Made by a program: the position numbers and the translations under genes
Source of the DNA: Pseudomonadota bacterium
Lineage (GTDB): Bacteria; Desulfobacterota; Syntrophorhabdia; Syntrophorhabdales; Syntrophorhabdaceae
Direction: 5' to 3'
DNA: 64,000 bases
NCBI GenBank assembly: GCA_026388315.1
Contig: JAPLKA010000054.1
Span: 1 to 64,000, forward strand
The notes under the pieces: generated by a model
The model's database searches: none
Told to the model about the DNA's origin: nothing
Seen by the model: the letters and a program-made list of their open reading frames with translations, nothing else
Part shown: one piece after another, positions 7,243 through 62,735 of the stretch
Position numbering within the stretch: position 1 is the stretch's first letter
Layout of the letters: each line of letters begins with the position of its first letter

Positions 7243-8007
7243 CTACTGGCCAAGATGCACCAAGGCATTGCGGAGTGGAGTACTGGAGATCTTTATCAGC
7301 CCTTGGTACGGATGGTCCAACTCCTGGATTAGAAAGAGTGATCCCGAGAGGGATAACGCGCAGAGGAGCAAAACGATAATTACCGTTGTGTTGCGAGGGG
7401 AGAACAGGCCAAAGCTGGTGAAGATAAGGGTGAGCCAGAAGACCAGTATCACGAGGAACGACATCGGGAGAGAGCTCTGTCCGAGTTGCTCGATGAGGTG
7501 CCAGCGAGCTTCGGCGATGTTGTCGCTGAGCTGCAGAGCCCGTGACTGATGCCAGCGCTGGGTATCGTTCTTTGGAGACAGTTGCTGCAGTTTGTCCTGA
7601 ATATTTTCGAGCCCACCCCCTCCTCCTGTCTCACGGATCTTTGTGGTCATGTGCTTCTCTTCTGACCAGATCCTCTGGATAGTGGAGGTAACGCCGCTTC
7701 GCAGAAGATCGCGGATTTCCTTCGTTTCCGGCCCGTAATGGGCCATGACGCGGTCGAGAAGAACAATCTTTGAGGCAGTCTGCCTGAGTTCGTTGTTCAT
7801 GGTATCAAAAGTTCCCTTCGCCGAGGAGATCAGCAGGCCAAGGACGAGGGCTGCCAGTGTCGCAATTATACCGGCTCCCAGCTTCACGACATCCTTTGAA
7901 TCATCGTTCACATGATGTTCGGGCAAAAGGGCGCGAAGCAACATGCCGAACAGCGCGCCGCCAAAGATGCAGACAAAAGCGATTAAAGAAATTGTCAGGG
8001 ATTCCAC
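7243..8007 (-). CDS. DUF4239 (bestrophin-like) integral membrane protein
   Basis: Protein of 254 aa with two N-terminal membrane segments (LIAFVCIFGGALFGMLLRAL and GAGIIATLAALVLGLLISSA), a central soluble, partly coiled region and two C-terminal membrane segments (about residues 180-225). The DDSKDVVKLGAGIIATLAAL pattern is characteristic of DUF4239, often called bestrophin-like. Function unknown; an ion channel role has been suggested only by distant similarity. It is convergent with the HAD phosphatase and upstream of nothing obvious. Confidence 0.8.
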   Translation of the reverse strand: MESLTISLIAFVCIFGGALFGMLLRALLPEHHVNDDSKDVVKLGAGIIATLAALVLGLLISSAKGTFDTMNNELRQTASKIVLLDRVMAHYGPETKEIRDLLRSGVTSTIQRIWSEEKHMTTKIRETGGGGGLENIQDKLQQLSPKNDTQRWHQSRALQLSDNIAEARWHLIEQLGQSSLPMSFLVILVFWLTLIFTSFGLFSPRNTTVIIVLLLCALSLSGSLFLIQELDHPYQGLIKISSTPLRNALVHLGQ

Positions 8008-19322: not shown

Positions 19323-19739
19323 TTATGGCCTTAAAACATTCAACCCTTCAATCTTCCTGAAATCCTTTTCGTCATAGGTGTAGACAGTTGAAAGACCTTC
19401 TTCGATGCCCCAATAACCCATTACTGCATCTGCAAATTTGACGTTTTGCGTTTCGTAAGCAAGGAGCGCTTTTCTGAATACGTTTTCGAGAGAACATTTC
19501 AGTTGAGGTGTGTTTAAGGTAGCTTCAACGATTTCCCTGATTGTTTTGCGATCAAATTTATACACCTTTTCTAAAACCCATACGATTTCCAAGACAGTTA
19601 CCGGCAAGAGATACAACGTGATTCCTTTATTTCCCGACTCTTTAAGGAGTTTCTCGACAGCCTTGCTCTTGCCTTCATCGTCTTTCGTCAGCAACCGCAG
19701 GATTGCGCTTGTATCAATAAACGCCTTATATCCGCTCAT
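19323..19739 (-). CDS. vapC: PIN-domain toxin of a VapBC-type module
   Basis: PIN-fold ribonuclease, 138 aa from the ATG at 19739, chosen because MSGYKAFIDTSAILRLLTKD is the family N-terminus; the frame is open further upstream. Acidic active-site residues: D in FIDTSA (about 9), E in VLEIVWVLE (about 50), D in KFADAVMG (about 100) and D in TYDEKDF. The start overlaps the antitoxin 3' end by 14 bases, typical for coupled toxin-antitoxin genes. It would cleave RNA (often tRNA or rRNA) when free of its antitoxin. Confidence 0.88.
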   Translation of the reverse strand: MSGYKAFIDTSAILRLLTKDDEGKSKAVEKLLKESGNKGITLYLLPVTVLEIVWVLEKVYKFDRKTIREIVEATLNTPQLKCSLENVFRKALLAYETQNVKFADAVMGYWGIEEGLSTVYTYDEKDFRKIEGLNVLRP

Positions 19740-19959
19740 GGGCAGCCTCCGAAATGGCGAGTTCCCGGATTTCTTCAATCGACGCCTCCATTTTTGGTAA
19801 TGTTCCGATATAGTCAAAGATAGTTTTTCCTCTCTTCAATACAACCTGCCCTTCCTTTTCTTCTATAACAAAAGTCTCGCCTACCTTGAGATCCATTTTT
19901 TTACGGATTGCTTTTGGGATTGTAATCTGCCATTTTGGTAATACCTTTACTGCCTGCAT
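19726..19959 (-). CDS. vapB: AbrB/SpoVT-type antitoxin of a VapBC-type module
   Basis: 77 aa from the ATG at 19959 (MQAVKVLPKWQITIPKAIRK), a swapped-hairpin AbrB domain with the classic QITIPKxIRKKMDLKxGE motif, followed by a C-terminal tail (about 50-77) that would wrap the PIN toxin. It is first in the operon, as usual, and should bind DNA to repress its own promoter. Confidence 0.88.
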   Translation of the reverse strand: MQAVKVLPKWQITIPKAIRKKMDLKVGETFVIEEKEGQVVLKRGKTIFDYIGTLPKMEASIEEIRELAISEAAHERI

Positions 19960-20137
19960 GGTTAACCTCCATAATAAATATCTGACATTCAAAAATTGTA
20001 GCACAATAAAATATTATCTGCCAAATAATAATTGGTAGCCTCGTAAATAAGTTCAGGCTTATAAGGTTGATCGGGAAATGGGCTTTCGCTGGAGGCTTTC
20101 GTTGGCGAAATGAACGGAGGGGAAGGAGCAAAGAGCG

Positions 20138-20275
20138 GAGATTTCCCTCCCGAATAGCGGTCTGAATCTCATCAGAGGTTTTTAAAAGTGAAAACCCGTT
20201 AAGCATCGTCCTTACAGTCTTTCCGTAGATTTTAGCAGTTGCTTGCACTGTGCAAGCAACTGCCTCTGGCAGGCC
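20138..20275 (-). pseudogene. Internal fragment of a ParB-like gene
   Basis: The minus strand encodes GLPEAVACTVQATAKIYGKT, then VRTMLNGFSLLKTSDEIQTA and IREGNL, matching residues about 156-200 of the ParB-like protein at 60048 (DLSEEIACTVHAISQISAKS, then SLLKLPPEIQAEIRSGNL). Homology stops on both sides; the 5' side runs into a YoeB remnant in the opposite orientation. The palindrome at 20235-20263 lies in it. Confidence 0.6.
20235..20263. repeat. Perfect 14-base-arm palindrome in the ParB-like fragment
   Basis: Left arm GCAGTTGCTTGCAC, centre T, right arm GTGCAAGCAACTGC. The equivalent codons of the intact ParB-like gene (60513-60541) hold an equally perfect palindrome with three compensated base-pair differences. 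See findings. Confidence 0.9.
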
Positions 20276-39561: not shown

Positions 39562-39592
39562 GTAGCCCCTGCGTGGGGGCGTGGATTGAAAC
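39562..39592 (+). CRISPR. Single orphan CRISPR repeat, type I-C-like
   Basis: GTAGCCCCTGCGTGGGGGCG followed by TGGATTGAAAC: 31 bases with the GCCCC/GGGGC hairpin and the ATTGAAAC tail of type I-C repeats (consensus about 32 bases, starting GTCGC). I searched both flanks by eye to about 39300 and 39850 and found no second repeat and no cas gene in the window. Likely the relict of a lost array. Confidence 0.6.
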
Positions 39593-39858
39593 TTAGGATC
39601 GGGGGGACGTAGGCTTCGCTGGGACATAGTACCAGGAGTGGGAAATGAGAAACGCGCAAGCCTTAATCCTGCCGAAGGCAGGACATTGCGAATCGTTAAA
39701 GTAAAAAGGCAAGGTAACATTTGCGGCAACAGTTGCCGCAACTTTTAAAATGGTCATAAAACCAATAATTAAAGGTAGTTATAGATCAGTCATCACCAAT
39801 CAAAAAAACATGGGGTCAAATCTTTATCCTTGACATTGGAGGATAAGCAGCTTCAGTC

Positions 39859-45436: not shown

Positions 45437-45467
45437 AAAATGGCCAGCAGATTTTGCTGGCCATTTT
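45437..45467. terminator. Bidirectional terminator between TRAP permease and activase genes
   Basis: AAAATGGCCAGCA and TGCTGGCCATTTT form a perfect 13-base stem with a short loop, flanked by A- and T-rich ends on both sides. It separates two convergent operons. Confidence 0.85.
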
Positions 45468-57671: not shown

Positions 57672-58889
57672 ATGGCAAACGAAGACCTTTCAAAATTAAA
57701 AATAGACAAATCACAGATCACCACCACTTCGACAAAAAGCAGAAAAAAGTTTTATCTTATCATTGCGTCGGCGATCATTCTCGTTCTTGTCGTCCTCTCT
57801 GCTCTGGGGGTTTTTACACCGGCGGTTAAAGTTGATGTTGCGACAGTTACCCAATCCTTTCCTTCGCAGGCATTTACTATGCTGAATGCGAGCGGTTATG
57901 TGGTGCCGCAGCGCAAGGCTGCAGTCGCTTCAAAGATCACCGGGAGGATTATCTCTCTTTATGTGGAAGAGGGAAGTGTAGTAAAAAAAGACGCAATGAT
58001 CGCACGGCTGGAGAACGATGATGTTTCAGCGACAAGGGATCAGGCACAGGCGAATCTGAATGTTGCCCGGGCAAACCTTGAACAGACAAATGCTGAACTC
58101 AAGGATGCACAATCCACATTCCGGAGGGAACAAAACCTTCTTGTACAGGAGTTTACCACAAAGGCTTCATATGATGCAGCGGAAGCACGTTACAGTAAGG
58201 CAAAAGCAGTAGTTGCAGGAGCCGAGGCTTCAATAAAAGCAAGTAAAGCAGCCCTGAACGGGGCAAATGTGGCGCTGGAATATACCTTTATTCGCGCCCC
58301 GTTTGACGCCGTCGTGTTGACAAAGAATGCAGATATCGGCGATATTGTAACCCCTATTGGCGCAGCAACCAATGCGAAGGCATCGGTAGTTACCATTGCA
58401 GACATGGGTTCACTTCAGGTTGAGGCGGATGTCTCGGAATCCAACCTCGAAAAGGTCAGAATTGGACAGCCGTGTGAAATCCAACTCGATGCCCTCCCTG
58501 AAGTACGTTTCCGCGGGGTGGTGCATATGATTGTCCCTACTGCCGATAGAAGCAAGGCAACGGTTATGGTAAAAGTTCGTTTTATCGATAAAGACAGACG
58601 TATATTACCCGAGATGAGCGCCAAAGTGGCTTTTCTGTCAAGAGAGATGCAGAAGGAAGAAGAGAAATTTAAAGTGGTATTGAGCCGGAAGGCGATTATA
58701 GAGCGCAATGGCAAAAAGATTGTATTCCTCCTGAAGGGTAACAGGGTAGTGGAAGCGCCTATCACAACAGGGGTCTTACTCAATGACGTGATTGAGCTTA
58801 AAGACGGGTTGAAGGTGGGCGACAGGATTGTTATCAACCCGCCCGACTCGTTGAAAAATGGTTCCAGGGTTAAATTGGCACAACAGTGA
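57672..58889 (+). CDS. Periplasmic adaptor (membrane fusion) protein, HlyD/MacA-like
   Basis: 405 aa. One N-terminal membrane helix (LIIASAIILVLVVLSALGVF), biotinyl-lipoyl halves (RKAAVASKITGRIISLYVEE and FIRAPFDAVVLTKNADIGDI), a helical coiled-coil hairpin between them (about 120-200), a beta-barrel domain and a membrane-proximal domain. Links an inner-membrane exporter to an outer-membrane channel. It precedes an ABC ATPase gene by 51 bases, as in MacAB-type exporters. Confidence 0.88.
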   Translation: MANEDLSKLKIDKSQITTTSTKSRKKFYLIIASAIILVLVVLSALGVFTPAVKVDVATVTQSFPSQAFTMLNASGYVVPQRKAAVASKITGRIISLYVEEGSVVKKDAMIARLENDDVSATRDQAQANLNVARANLEQTNAELKDAQSTFRREQNLLVQEFTTKASYDAAEARYSKAKAVVAGAEASIKASKAALNGANVALEYTFIRAPFDAVVLTKNADIGDIVTPIGAATNAKASVVTIADMGSLQVEADVSESNLEKVRIGQPCEIQLDALPEVRFRGVVHMIVPTADRSKATVMVKVRFIDKDRRILPEMSAKVAFLSREMQKEEEKFKVVLSRKAIIERNGKKIVFLLKGNRVVEAPITTGVLLNDVIELKDGLKVGDRIVINPPDSLKNGSRVKLAQQ

Positions 58890-58940
58890 AAAATCAGCGT
58901 TCAGCTTATTGCTCATAGCTGACTGCTGATAGCTTAAATT

Positions 58941-59633
58941 ATGTCCGACAAAATACCTATAGTTGAAATAGAGCATGTGTATAAATCCTACTGGCGGGGG
59001 AGCCAGGTTGTGCCTGTGCTGCAGGACATTACCTTTGATATCGGTGAAGGTGAATTCCTTGCGCTTATGGGGCCCTCCGGTTCCGGCAAAAGCACACTTT
59101 TAAATCTTATTGCAGGTATCGACAAAGTTGATAGCGGAATGATAAGAGTGGGCGGGGCCGATATAACGATCCTGTCGGAGAACGACCTTGCAAAATGGCG
59201 TTCTACCCATGTTGGATTTATCTTTCAGTTTTATAATCTGATCCCTGTTTTGACGGCCTTTGAGAATGTGGAACTTCCATTACTCTTGACCCATCTTTCA
59301 AAGAGCCAGCGGAAGGAGCATGTGGAGATGGCGCTTAGACTGGTTAATCTTAACGACAGAATGGACCATTATCCGGGTCAGTTATCCGGCGGTCAGCAGC
59401 AGCGTGTTGCCATAGCGAGAGCAATGATAACGGATCCGACAATCCTTGTTGCCGATGAACCGACCGGTGATCTTGACCGGGTTTCAGCGGAGGATATCAT
59501 GGAACTTATGAACCGTCTGAATGTCGAGTCGGGTAAGACGATTATATTGGTAACACACGACCCGAGGGCTGCAAAAAAAGCACACCTTATCAAGCATCTT
59601 GATAAGGGGGTATTGAATTCTCAAGATTTGTAG
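58941..59633 (+). CDS. ABC transporter ATP-binding protein, MacB/LolD-like
   Basis: 230 aa. Walker A GPSGSGKSTLLN (about 43-54), Q-loop IFQFYNLIP, ABC signature LSGGQQQRVAIARAM (about 150), Walker B ILVADEPTGDL, H-loop VTHDPRAA. Belongs to the type VII (MacB/LolD/FtsE) exporters. The FtsX-like permease that normally follows is absent: the next 400 bases are noncoding hairpins and then an orphan ParB-like gene. It must pair with a permease elsewhere, or the system is broken. Confidence 0.9.
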   Translation: MSDKIPIVEIEHVYKSYWRGSQVVPVLQDITFDIGEGEFLALMGPSGSGKSTLLNLIAGIDKVDSGMIRVGGADITILSENDLAKWRSTHVGFIFQFYNLIPVLTAFENVELPLLLTHLSKSQRKEHVEMALRLVNLNDRMDHYPGQLSGGQQQRVAIARAMITDPTILVADEPTGDLDRVSAEDIMELMNRLNVESGKTIILVTHDPRAAKKAHLIKHLDKGVLNSQDL

Positions 59634-60047: not shown

Positions 60048-60989
60048 ATGGCGACAAAGAAGACTACAAGTGTAAACCCGGAATTTCTCTATGTTCCTAT
60101 TGGAAATATAGTGGTGCTGGAACAGGTCAGATCGAATGTCAATACTGAATCAGATTCATTCAAAGCTCTTGTGCAATCCATTAAAGACAAGGGCATCTTG
60201 GAGCCTCTCCTTGTAACAAAAGGAGACGGCGACTTGTACAACCTCATCTGCGGGGAGAGGCGTCTGGAAGCAGCCCGGCAGCTCGAACTTGAATTAGTAC
60301 CGGTACGGATCATAGAAGCAGGTAAGGAATCAGGTGAGACCATAGCCCTCCAACTGACAGAGAACCTCCAGCGAGAAGACTTAAACCCTATGGATCAGGC
60401 AAAGGGGGTATTGACATATATTCAAGTAAAACACCCTGATAAAGGGTATGGTCTGGATGGGGTGATGGCCGAGTTAGTGAATGTCCAACGGAGACCAGAT
60501 GACCTATCGGAAGAAATTGCATGCACTGTGCATGCAATTTCTCAAATCTCTGCAAAGTCTTATTCCACGCTGTTCCGCACGATTTCACTTTTAAAACTTC
60601 CTCCTGAAATTCAAGCCGAAATCCGGTCAGGAAATTTACCTGTCTCTCAGGGATATCTCTTCGCTGCCAACCTCGAATGTCCCGACCGCATGCAGATATT
60701 TACCAACATTATGAAGACACCCGTTACTAATGCCACATTGAATAATCTGCTCACCGCATACAAGAAGGTCAAGCCAGTCCCAGGTGTTACAAAGCTCATA
60801 CCTATGAAGAAGCAGATTGCAAGCTTACGATCCGTAGAGTCACGCATTGAGATGGGTATTGCAAAATACACAAAGCCTGACCTTGTAACGCTTCTTGATG
60901 AGTTGCGTGTTTTCTGCGCTTTAGTGGAACTGCGGATACCGATCGCCCCGGAACCTCCGCCGGAGAAGAAAAAGCCCCCACAGTTGTGA
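60048..60989 (+). CDS. ParB/RepB/Spo0J-like nuclease-domain protein, orphan
   Basis: 313 aa. N-terminal ParB domain (about 15-105): LVQSIKDKGILEPLLVTKGD, the GERRLEAARQL box and ALQLTENLQREDLNPMDQA. A helix-turn-helix-rich KorB/ParB middle part (about 106-215) contains SLLKLPPEIQAEIRSGNLPV and QGYLFAANLECPDRM, and the C-terminus is proline/lysine-rich (PEPPPEKKKPPQL). No parA neighbour. A perfect palindrome lies in the coding sequence at 60512-60542. Possibly a regulator or a segregation protein of a mobile element; a broken relative lies at 20138-20275. RBS GGGGAGG. Confidence 0.85.
   Translation: MATKKTTSVNPEFLYVPIGNIVVLEQVRSNVNTESDSFKALVQSIKDKGILEPLLVTKGDGDLYNLICGERRLEAARQLELELVPVRIIEAGKESGETIALQLTENLQREDLNPMDQAKGVLTYIQVKHPDKGYGLDGVMAELVNVQRRPDDLSEEIACTVHAISQISAKSYSTLFRTISLLKLPPEIQAEIRSGNLPVSQGYLFAANLECPDRMQIFTNIMKTPVTNATLNNLLTAYKKVKPVPGVTKLIPMKKQIASLRSVESRIEMGIAKYTKPDLVTLLDELRVFCALVELRIPIAPEPPPEKKKPPQL
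60512..60542. repeat. Perfect 15-base-arm palindrome inside the ParB-like gene
   Basis: Left arm AGAAATTGCATGCAC, centre T, right arm GTGCATGCAATTTCT. It spans codons for EEIACTVHAIS. The equivalent site in the ParB-like fragment at 20235-20263 is also a perfect palindrome. Confidence 0.92.
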
Positions 60990-61196: not shown

Positions 61197-62525
61197 TCAT
61201 AAAACAGCAGTTGCCTTTATGGTAACCAGTTCAAACCCCAGTTCCTGAGCTCTCCGTTTCAGGTTTTGTATAACTCTTGACCGATGGCGTTCTTCATAAT
61301 ATTCCTGACCGGCATCAACATAAGCAGTTCCATGTGTGAGCATGGCATAGACCAGGCGAGCCAGTTTATGGGCTGTAGCGGTTATTGCCTTGGGAGCACC
61401 GAGACGTGCCCGTTGTCTTCTTAGATATGCACCAAGCGCACTCTTTGAATTGAACAGGGTAAACGCAGCCATGCGCAACGCTGCAGCAGCTTTGTTGGCA
61501 ACCTGTTTCGTGGCGCTGCTTAACACCTTACCGCCGCTGACCTTCGTGCCGGGAGATAGGCCAAGCCATGAGGCAAAATGTTTGGCCGATTTGAAGCGGC
61601 TCATGTCCGTACCGATCTCGGAGAGGATCTTCAGTGCGGTTGTGGTATCGATGCCGTCAATGCTCGTTAAGTCAACCCCGGACATGCGTACGAGTGCATC
61701 TTCCACGCTTGTGGGAGGCATGTTATTCGGGGAATCATCGAAGCTTTCCAGCTGCTTAAGTATCTGACGGTCACAGTCAGCGATCTTTGTCTGATAAACC
61801 TCATAGAGTTCAACTGCCTGTTGGAGACTGAAGAGGTGTTCGGGGCGATAGTTGCCTTTCAGGGAACGGGCTATCATTGCACTGCTGTTTTTGCACCGGG
61901 GATCGCGCATGGCTGCCAGGGCGTCGGGATTCCTTTCACCGTCGAGAATTGCCTTGATGATCCGCATACCCGTTGTCCCTGTGATGTCCGTCACCACATT
62001 ATGGAGCTGGAGGTTCATTTGGGCCAATGCCTTTTGCATTCTTTGTATATGCGATGCGGAACTGCGCACCAGGGTGCTTCTCTGTCGAACATAGGCACGA
62101 AGGGTACATACCTGGTCAACGGGACGGAAGGCGCCGTGAAGGAGTCCATAGGTATGCAACTGCTGGAGCCATTGGCAGTCCAGTACATCGCTTTTTCTGC
62201 CGGGGACATTTTTGACATGACGGGCATTGACAAGCTTGACCTCGAGCCCGTGGCTTTCAAGAACCTCGAATACCGGTATCCAATAAACGCCGGTAGATTC
62301 CATGGCAACAGTGGTGACGCCGCATGAGATCAACCATTCCGCCAGGCGTTCAAGGTCGGCGGTGAACGTTGAAAACTCACGGACTGGCTGTTCATCTGTT
62401 CCTTCAGGTACTGCCACGAAGTGACTTTTAGAACCGATGTCGATTCCTGCCGCATACCGGTTGATATGTTCAAGATGCTTCGGGAGCTTCATTTCCTTCT
62501 TCCTTAAAGACTTTTTCTGTTTCAT
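61197..62525 (-). CDS. IS110-family transposase (bridge-RNA-guided recombinase family)
   Basis: 442 aa from ATG 62525 (GGAGG upstream). N-terminal RuvC-like DEDD domain: AAGIDIGSKSHFVAVPEG (first Asp), AMESTGVYWIPVFEVLE (Glu), GRKSDVLDCQWLQQLHTYGL (the DxxD pair). C-terminal transposase_20 domain with a helix-hairpin-helix SIDGIDTTTALKILSEIGTD and the serine recombinase-like KHFASWLGLSPGTKVSGGK. Intact, so potentially active. Confidence 0.93.
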   Translation of the reverse strand: MKQKKSLRKKEMKLPKHLEHINRYAAGIDIGSKSHFVAVPEGTDEQPVREFSTFTADLERLAEWLISCGVTTVAMESTGVYWIPVFEVLESHGLEVKLVNARHVKNVPGRKSDVLDCQWLQQLHTYGLLHGAFRPVDQVCTLRAYVRQRSTLVRSSASHIQRMQKALAQMNLQLHNVVTDITGTTGMRIIKAILDGERNPDALAAMRDPRCKNSSAMIARSLKGNYRPEHLFSLQQAVELYEVYQTKIADCDRQILKQLESFDDSPNNMPPTSVEDALVRMSGVDLTSIDGIDTTTALKILSEIGTDMSRFKSAKHFASWLGLSPGTKVSGGKVLSSATKQVANKAAAALRMAAFTLFNSKSALGAYLRRQRARLGAPKAITATAHKLARLVYAMLTHGTAYVDAGQEYYEERHRSRVIQNLKRRAQELGFELVTIKATAVL

Positions 62526-62735
62526 CAATCCGACCTCCGCAATACGTAATCGGCATTGCCGGAAAGAGGAGTTGTCGGATACAGCTCTCTTCTGAACGGG
62601 ATAGCATATGCTTCACCAATGTCAAATTCGCCAACTCCCGGACCACGCTATTCAGCGGACATAAAGTACCAGTGGCGATACGGCCTCATCATCCCGGATG
62701 CCTTATTGACAATACCCTGTTTTCATTCTCCAAAT
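62526..62735 (-). ncRNA. Candidate bridge RNA region of the IS110 element
   Basis: About 210 noncoding bases upstream of the transposase, where IS110-group elements encode the RNA that pairs with donor and target DNA. It has several short self-complementary segments (for example CCGACCTCCG to CGGAAAGAGG, and GGGATAGCATATGC). I could not fold it or define loops, so only position and family knowledge support this. Confidence 0.35.

Follow-up and report, generated by a model that had tools for sequence, protein, structure and literature searches.

The parB-like gene at 60048-60989 of the window (the whole stretch of 64,000 nucleotides that was analysed) carries a perfect palindrome within the codons of its own helix-turn-helix (HTH) domain, and comparison with homologous copies indicates that this palindrome is very probably the cognate, parS-like site of the encoded protein, diversifying copy by copy. 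The palindrome, AGAAATTGCATGCAC-T-GTGCATGCAATTTCT, consists of two perfect 15-bp arms around one central base, and a decayed fragment of the same family elsewhere in the window keeps an intact counterpart at 20235-20263, TTGCTTGCAC-N-GTGCAAGCAA, with 14-bp arms. Both palindromes were confirmed as the original prediction had described them, together with the three compensated differences between their arms, which fall at arm positions 6, 11 and 13 counted from the centre (5' positions 9, 4 and 2 of the 14-mer); what did not stand was their treatment as two coincident cases, since they are two members of a large family. The relevant features of the window are listed below; confidence in the protein model on which the helices are drawn is modest (mean pLDDT 72.8; approximately 71-93 across residues 150-200).

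60048..60989, + strand: ParB/Spo0J-like gene, intact full-length family member of 313 amino acids (ORF; Pfam ParB_N and HTH_ParB)
60480..60503, + strand: codons 145-152, where an extra helix (136-148) ends and a loop follows; arm base 7 covaries with residue 145, and arm base 8 with residues 149 and 152
60510..60551, + strand: first HTH helix, codons 155-168, within which the palindrome is written (AlphaFold2 model; Spo0J/ParB profile alignment)
60512..60542, no strand assigned: perfect palindrome, of which the centre base, 60527, is the third base of the Thr160 codon
60517-60537, within the palindrome: conserved site core, arm positions 1-10
60561..60596, + strand: recognition helix, codons 172-183 (AlphaFold2 model)
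60561-60563, 60564-60566 and 60576-60578: codons of Tyr172 and Ser173, both covarying with arm base 5 (here T), and of Arg177, covarying with arm base 3 (here C)
20138..20275, - strand: decayed family fragment, residues 152-197 (aligned to the 60048-60989 protein)
39718..39744, no strand assigned: third of the window's sites, TTGCGGCAAC-A-GTTGCCGCAA, scored by site model R1 with filters off (34.8 bits, E 1.7e-8)

Classification and distribution of the gene family

The N-terminal domain of the 60048-60989 protein is that of ParB (PF02195, E 3.2e-13; TIGR00180, E 1.6e-22, above cut-off), and the GERR and ENLQRED-type motifs are invariant in the family alignment (A1), resembling by sequence the CTPase domain of chromosomal ParB/Spo0J, which acts on parS, and of Noc, which acts on NBS. 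The central domain is a ParB-type HTH (PF17762 above cut-off) with the fold of ParB, Noc and Spo0J according to Foldseek matches to 7nfu, 6t1f and 1vz0 (E down to 6e-12). A weak methyltransferase match reported by PADLOC is confined to the ParB_N region. By predicted fold and motifs, the family is thus of ParB type, but it is not a canonical ParABS system: no ParA ATPase gene is adjacent to the window copy, which has HlyD, ABC ATPase and IS110 transposase genes as neighbours, and the canonical parS, TGTTNCACGTGAAACA, is not the site of the family, in which the arms vary between copies and the centre is odd. Like parS, the family site is a palindrome with inner CAC/GTG; canonical ParBs recognize one conserved 16-bp even palindrome, whereas the family site has an extra central base, is nearly copy-specific, and lies inside HTH codons. 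In B. subtilis, too, spo0J contains a parS, although this one is not known to be diversified or to lie in HTH codons. A near-canonical parS with one mismatch occurs twice in the genome of the window (G000:C72:449-464 and 7894-7909) and presumably belongs to the host's ordinary ParABS system.

The genome of the window (3.80 Mb, 131 contigs) has at least 83 tblastn matches to the protein, of which about 15 are open over their full length and many are short fragments that mostly span residues 130-197. With the exception of two canonical ParBs, all of the 64 matches that cover the site have an odd palindrome in the same place, with differing arms. When relatives are included, there are approximately 155 distinct copies, all with the odd palindrome at one shared place: it is centred at the same codon in 97/97 copies of a discovery set and in 58/58 copies of a hold-out set drawn from two other genomes of the same taxonomic family. 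A search for homologues without any palindrome, or with arms that vary independently, as the original prediction had proposed, instead found the palindrome in every family member down to 42% identity.

The distribution of the family is patchy: of the 40 genomes searched, six carry it, in abundance in the window's genome, G002, G005 and G016 and in smaller numbers in G010 and G011, and the others have none. The carriers that have names are all draft metagenome-assembled genomes (MAGs), namely lake-sediment Proteobacteria and delta-proteobacteria and MAGs of Syntrophus, Syntrophaceae and Syntrophobacterales. A genome of the same genus as the window (G001, 86% complete) lacks both the family genes and the sites, suggesting gain or loss at the scale of the genus. 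Canonical ParBs of bacteria, archaea and viruses are without the palindrome; the viral contigs scanned contained only canonical or distant ParBs (<50% identity), none with a palindrome, and the plasmid and phage records only distant ParBs (<60% identity).

Anatomy and pairing of the site

The palindrome is centred on the third base of the codon for Thr160, a near-invariant residue that aligns with the threonine opening the first HTH helix of ParB ('LTQEE'; profile alignment to the Spo0J/ParB HTH). The core of the site is T-N(6)-M-A-C-N-G-T-K-N(6)-A, where M is A or C, K is T or G, and position +1 is G or T. The arms are hypervariable, with 77 distinct half-sites among the 155 copies; for example, copies with the half-sites TTGCCCCAAC, TGACAGACAC and TTTCTGAAAC are paralogues in the window's genome. 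Watson-Crick pairing at arm positions 3-9 is nevertheless 95-100% at each position and 99% overall, even at positions 4-6, where the entropy is 1.7-1.9 bits. A chance origin, which the original prediction had thought unexpected, can be excluded, as 99.1% of cells are paired in 75 distinct 27-mers compared to 62.3% after shuffling; the covariation score of the same 27-mers is 0.909 compared to 0.196 (0/500 shuffles).

A code relating protein residues to arm bases

The arms vary in concert with the DNA-binding domain of the encoded protein. Among 64 intact full-length genes, whenever arm base 5 is G, and never otherwise, residue 173 is Arg or Lys (64/64); whenever arm base 3 is A, and never otherwise, residue 177 is Asn, with Arg or Ser in the remaining genes (64/64). 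This exceptionless rule is independent of any tree. The mutual information of arm position 5 with the encoded protein peaks at residue 173 and that of arm position 3 at residues 177/178, with no such peak at variable residues that are nearer. With both rules settled from the first 97 copies, the 58 hold-out copies served as the test: residue 173 was Arg or Lys in 25/25 copies with G at base 5 and in 2/33 of the others, and residue 177 was Asn in 23/23 copies with A at base 3 and Arg in 32/34 with C. A distant homologue (L130) breaks the rule for residue 173.

The partners also switch together. In 50 disjoint nearest-neighbour pairs of copies, arm 5 and residue 173 switched jointly ten times, the arm alone once and the residue alone never (p=1e-9), while arm 3 and residue 177 switched jointly in 16 pairs, with no arm-only and three residue-only switches (p=2e-10); control residues mostly showed no joint switching. 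On a tree built without codons 140-185, from which counts are approximate because the genes are mosaic, switches fell on the same branch in 20/20 cases for arm 5 and residue 173 and in 24/24 for arm 3 and residue 177, compared to chance means of 3.7 and 4.9. Further pairs on the tree are arm 5 with Tyr172 (9/9), arm 8 with Tyr152 (13/13 arm switches) and arm 7 with Lys/Arg145 (11/12 arm switches); the pair of arm 8 with residue 149 is weaker (6 joint of 22 and 15 changes). The gene of the window fits the code, with S173 and Y172 opposite T5, R177 opposite C3, R149 opposite G8, and N145 opposite C7.

As far as can be judged from sequence, the pairs are chemically sensible, Arg or Lys occurring with G and Asn with A, and the code strongly implies that the HTH reads the palindrome as its cognate site. 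The specificity residues of Caulobacter ParB (R173, N178 and T179; PMC7383237) fall in the segment of family helix positions 172-178. Of the options offered by the original prediction, a binding site for the protein within its own gene is the one favoured by the covariation of arm bases 3, 5, 7 and 8 with residues of the predicted DNA-binding domain.

Sites in the genomes and in decayed copies

A covariance model of the 27-bp site (R1) places at least about 75 distinct sites in the window's genome (150 of 1650 candidates scored). The six family-bearing genomes have 102, 100, 90, 66, 16 and 5 matches (strands counted separately), and the other 34 of the 40 genomes have zero or one each. The sites examined are in parB-like copies, in their decayed fragments, or in mostly non-coding DNA. 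A relaxed scan places the site in the HTH codons of 63/64 intact genes (two at a shifted offset), and a single gene of the 64 has its site repeated within 1.5 kb. Some sites cluster in decayed repeats, in a scan that selects perfect palindromes. At two loci in repeat-rich DNA, L343 (G000:C88:35000-37900) and L348 (G000:C56:24500-27400), several palindromes with differing arms are clustered and some overlap (TTCTGAAACATTTTCAGAAACTGTTTCTGAAAAT); at two others, L049 and L050 (G000:C125 and C128), decayed copies lie head to head within about 100 bases, with one palindrome each.

Short copies picked by protein similarity alone are decayed, deviating at 11% of conserved flank columns compared to 1.9% in long copies, and have lost the match between arm 3 and residue 177, yet only 2/210 of their arm pairs are broken where about 37 would be expected. 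Thus, the palindrome outlives the reading frame.

Within the window, the site at 39718..39744 has no recognizable parB-like reading frame around it by flank comparison. A single perfect type I-C-like CRISPR repeat-like sequence (GTAGCCCCTGCGTGGGGGCGTGGATTGAAAC), the sole copy in the window, is found at 39562-39592, about 130 bases from this isolated site. A weak site match at 45438-45466 was rejected as an ordinary terminator-like hairpin.

Genomic context

The HlyD and ABC ATPase genes before the window copy (57672-59633) lack their permease partners, which are adjacent in most of the relatives compared; relatives have HlyD, the ABC ATPase and usually two permease genes, and similarity to the window stops near the 3' end of the ATPase gene. 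Since the parB-like copy and IS110 follow this point, the copy is placed at a rearrangement junction, for which no clean empty site was found among the relatives. The IS110-family transposase gene (DEDD_Tnp_IS110, Transposase_20) directly downstream, at 61197-62528, has an 82% identical 1.57-kb copy in G016. The decayed fragment at 20138-20275 adjoins a gene pair for a MazE/AbrB-like antitoxin and a PIN-domain toxin (19323-20004).

An insertion sequence or transposon identity for the family itself was considered and rejected: domain searches found no transposase domain in the 60048-60989 protein, and the shared flanks of full-length copies extend for 40-400 bp to varied end points, so that neither a unit boundary nor a transposase can be defined.

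Alternative explanations

Taken together, the evidence is best explained, with considerable confidence, by the palindrome being a duplex, parS-like recognition site of the protein that its gene encodes, and autoregulation is its likeliest use. The same binding site might have another use, either in partition or nucleoid organization of many loci or as a homing or recombination target that spreads the gene. This is a serious possibility, though less likely than not: satellite clusters of sites exist, the copy number is high, and ParB clamps can leave parS by sliding and so spread along DNA (PMC7053999), but only three sites were found in a 400-kb sample of other chromosomal sequence, a rarity outside the family loci that makes a genome-wide nucleoid grid unlikely, and the protein has no nuclease or recombinase domain by domain search.

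Neutral template switching (quasi-palindrome correction), in which the polymerase copies one arm from the other to no functional end, is improbable as a full account. Such copying is a documented process, capable of maintaining hairpins (PMC8794818), and the perfection of arms in decayed, non-coding copies is as it would predict; the original prediction had listed it among its options, and it may be the mutational route that changes both arms at once. Alone, however, it cannot produce the residue-base code, in which base 5 is tied to residue 173 and base 3 to residue 177, some 40-50 bases away, without exception; across the family, moreover, strong mirroring stops at about arm position 10.

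Linkage without interaction, whereby recombination shuffles HTH cassettes and the palindrome merely travels with the helix, is very unlikely. The palindrome and the recognition helix are within 60 bp, and close copies differ mainly in this part of the gene, but residues 165, 168 and 176, which are as near or nearer, ignore arm 5 and switch at chance level on the tree; linkage cannot give different partners to neighbouring arm positions such as 3 and 5, and the pairs are chemically sensible. Selection for an mRNA or single-stranded DNA hairpin, serving as an attenuator, an RNase site or an ssDNA recombination site, is equally hard to credit, despite arms that covary strongly as near-perfect inverted repeats with a loop of 1-3 bases: no G.T (G.U in RNA) pair occurs at arm positions 3-8 in the 97 discovery copies, though such pairs are the easiest RNA intermediates, and together with the near-perfect pairing this indicates a constraint on duplex DNA rather than RNA; moreover, the residue-base code has no place in a hairpin, and Rfam gave only sub-threshold matches and no known structured RNA at the site. 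Another option of the original prediction, an in-frame palindromic element, would be a selfish palindromic insert of the Rickettsia type (RPE) tolerated in an insertion-like segment of the ParB HTH, with many short dispersed copies as in Rickettsia, but it can scarcely be correct, as RPEs occur in many unrelated genes and are not known to be read by the host protein, whereas this palindrome invariably occupies one codon position in a single gene family and was not seen in unrelated genes, its short copies bear flanking parB-like codons, and its arms are tied to protein residues.

Diversification and a proposed mechanism

Purifying selection acts on the intact copies (pN/pS 0.33 outside codons 140-185 and 0.04 in codons 109-120), with replacements peaking at the HTH. 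Close copies differ chiefly in codons 141-180, a sequence pattern that looks as if specificity cassettes had been exchanged. Distinct half-sites are the norm among the intact copies of a genome (13/15, 16/17, 13/15 and 14/15, genome by genome); avoidance of shared specificity is not supported, the sharing of half-sites within genomes (1.5%) being no lower than that between them (1.1%).

Autoregulation with copy-specific immunity is the likeliest use of the site, by analogy with other systems, and it is fairly likely that the family is a proliferating ParB-like element that addresses itself, in which the code for the DNA-reading domain doubles as the DNA that is read, with immunity-like diversification into dozens of orthogonal pairs. 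According to this model, the site is written in codons 157-163, at the start of the protein's own HTH, and a ParB-like CTPase dimer probably binds both half-sites; arm base 5 would be read by residue 173 and arm base 3 by residue 177 of the recognition helix, and bases 7-8 by residues 145, 149 and 152 of the extra helix. Diversification of the HTH segment, or its exchange between copies, would change site and reader together and give nearly every intact copy in a genome its own address. Once loaded on the ORF that encodes it, the protein of such a gene, whether selfish or mobile, would silence that copy and incoming copies of the same specificity, much as in phage immunity or plasmid incompatibility; new specificities would then be continually favoured by selection, and decayed copies would remain as satellite sites. 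Autoregulation and copy immunity would explain why site and gene are linked, why the arms are hypervariable, and why other sites nearby are lacking.

Known systems offer partial parallels. KorB and the ParB-parS pairs of plasmids, which diverge into incompatibility groups, have a related fold and partner-specific site recognition, but one specificity per replicon and separate sites, whereas the family has about 15 intact, diversified copies per genome with a site in each ORF. In Cluster A mycobacteriophages, a repressor and many dispersed stoperators coevolve into immunity specificities (PMC6550527), but the repressors are of a different protein family and the sites are not in their own HTH codons. 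Nematomorph mitochondria maintain perfect inverted repeats inside functional coding sequence (PMC6649704); these palindromes, however, are long, occur in unrelated genes, and have neither a DNA-binding protein nor a residue-base code.

In this family, the probable binding site and the reading domain share codons and still diversify rapidly, a conflict that might have been expected to be prohibitive. Each copy would state its own target, so that the family would be a ready set of 77 half-sites paired with their readers, from which the protein-DNA recognition code of ParB-type HTH domains becomes readable directly from sequence, and testable. Orthogonal pairs could serve as DNA tags, as ParB-parS already does. 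If the genes do address themselves, they would constitute a natural, self-documenting recognition code in which code and reader are forced to co-evolve; and if the silencing of like copies is also real, they would exemplify a novel means by which a selfish gene keeps its own copies in check.
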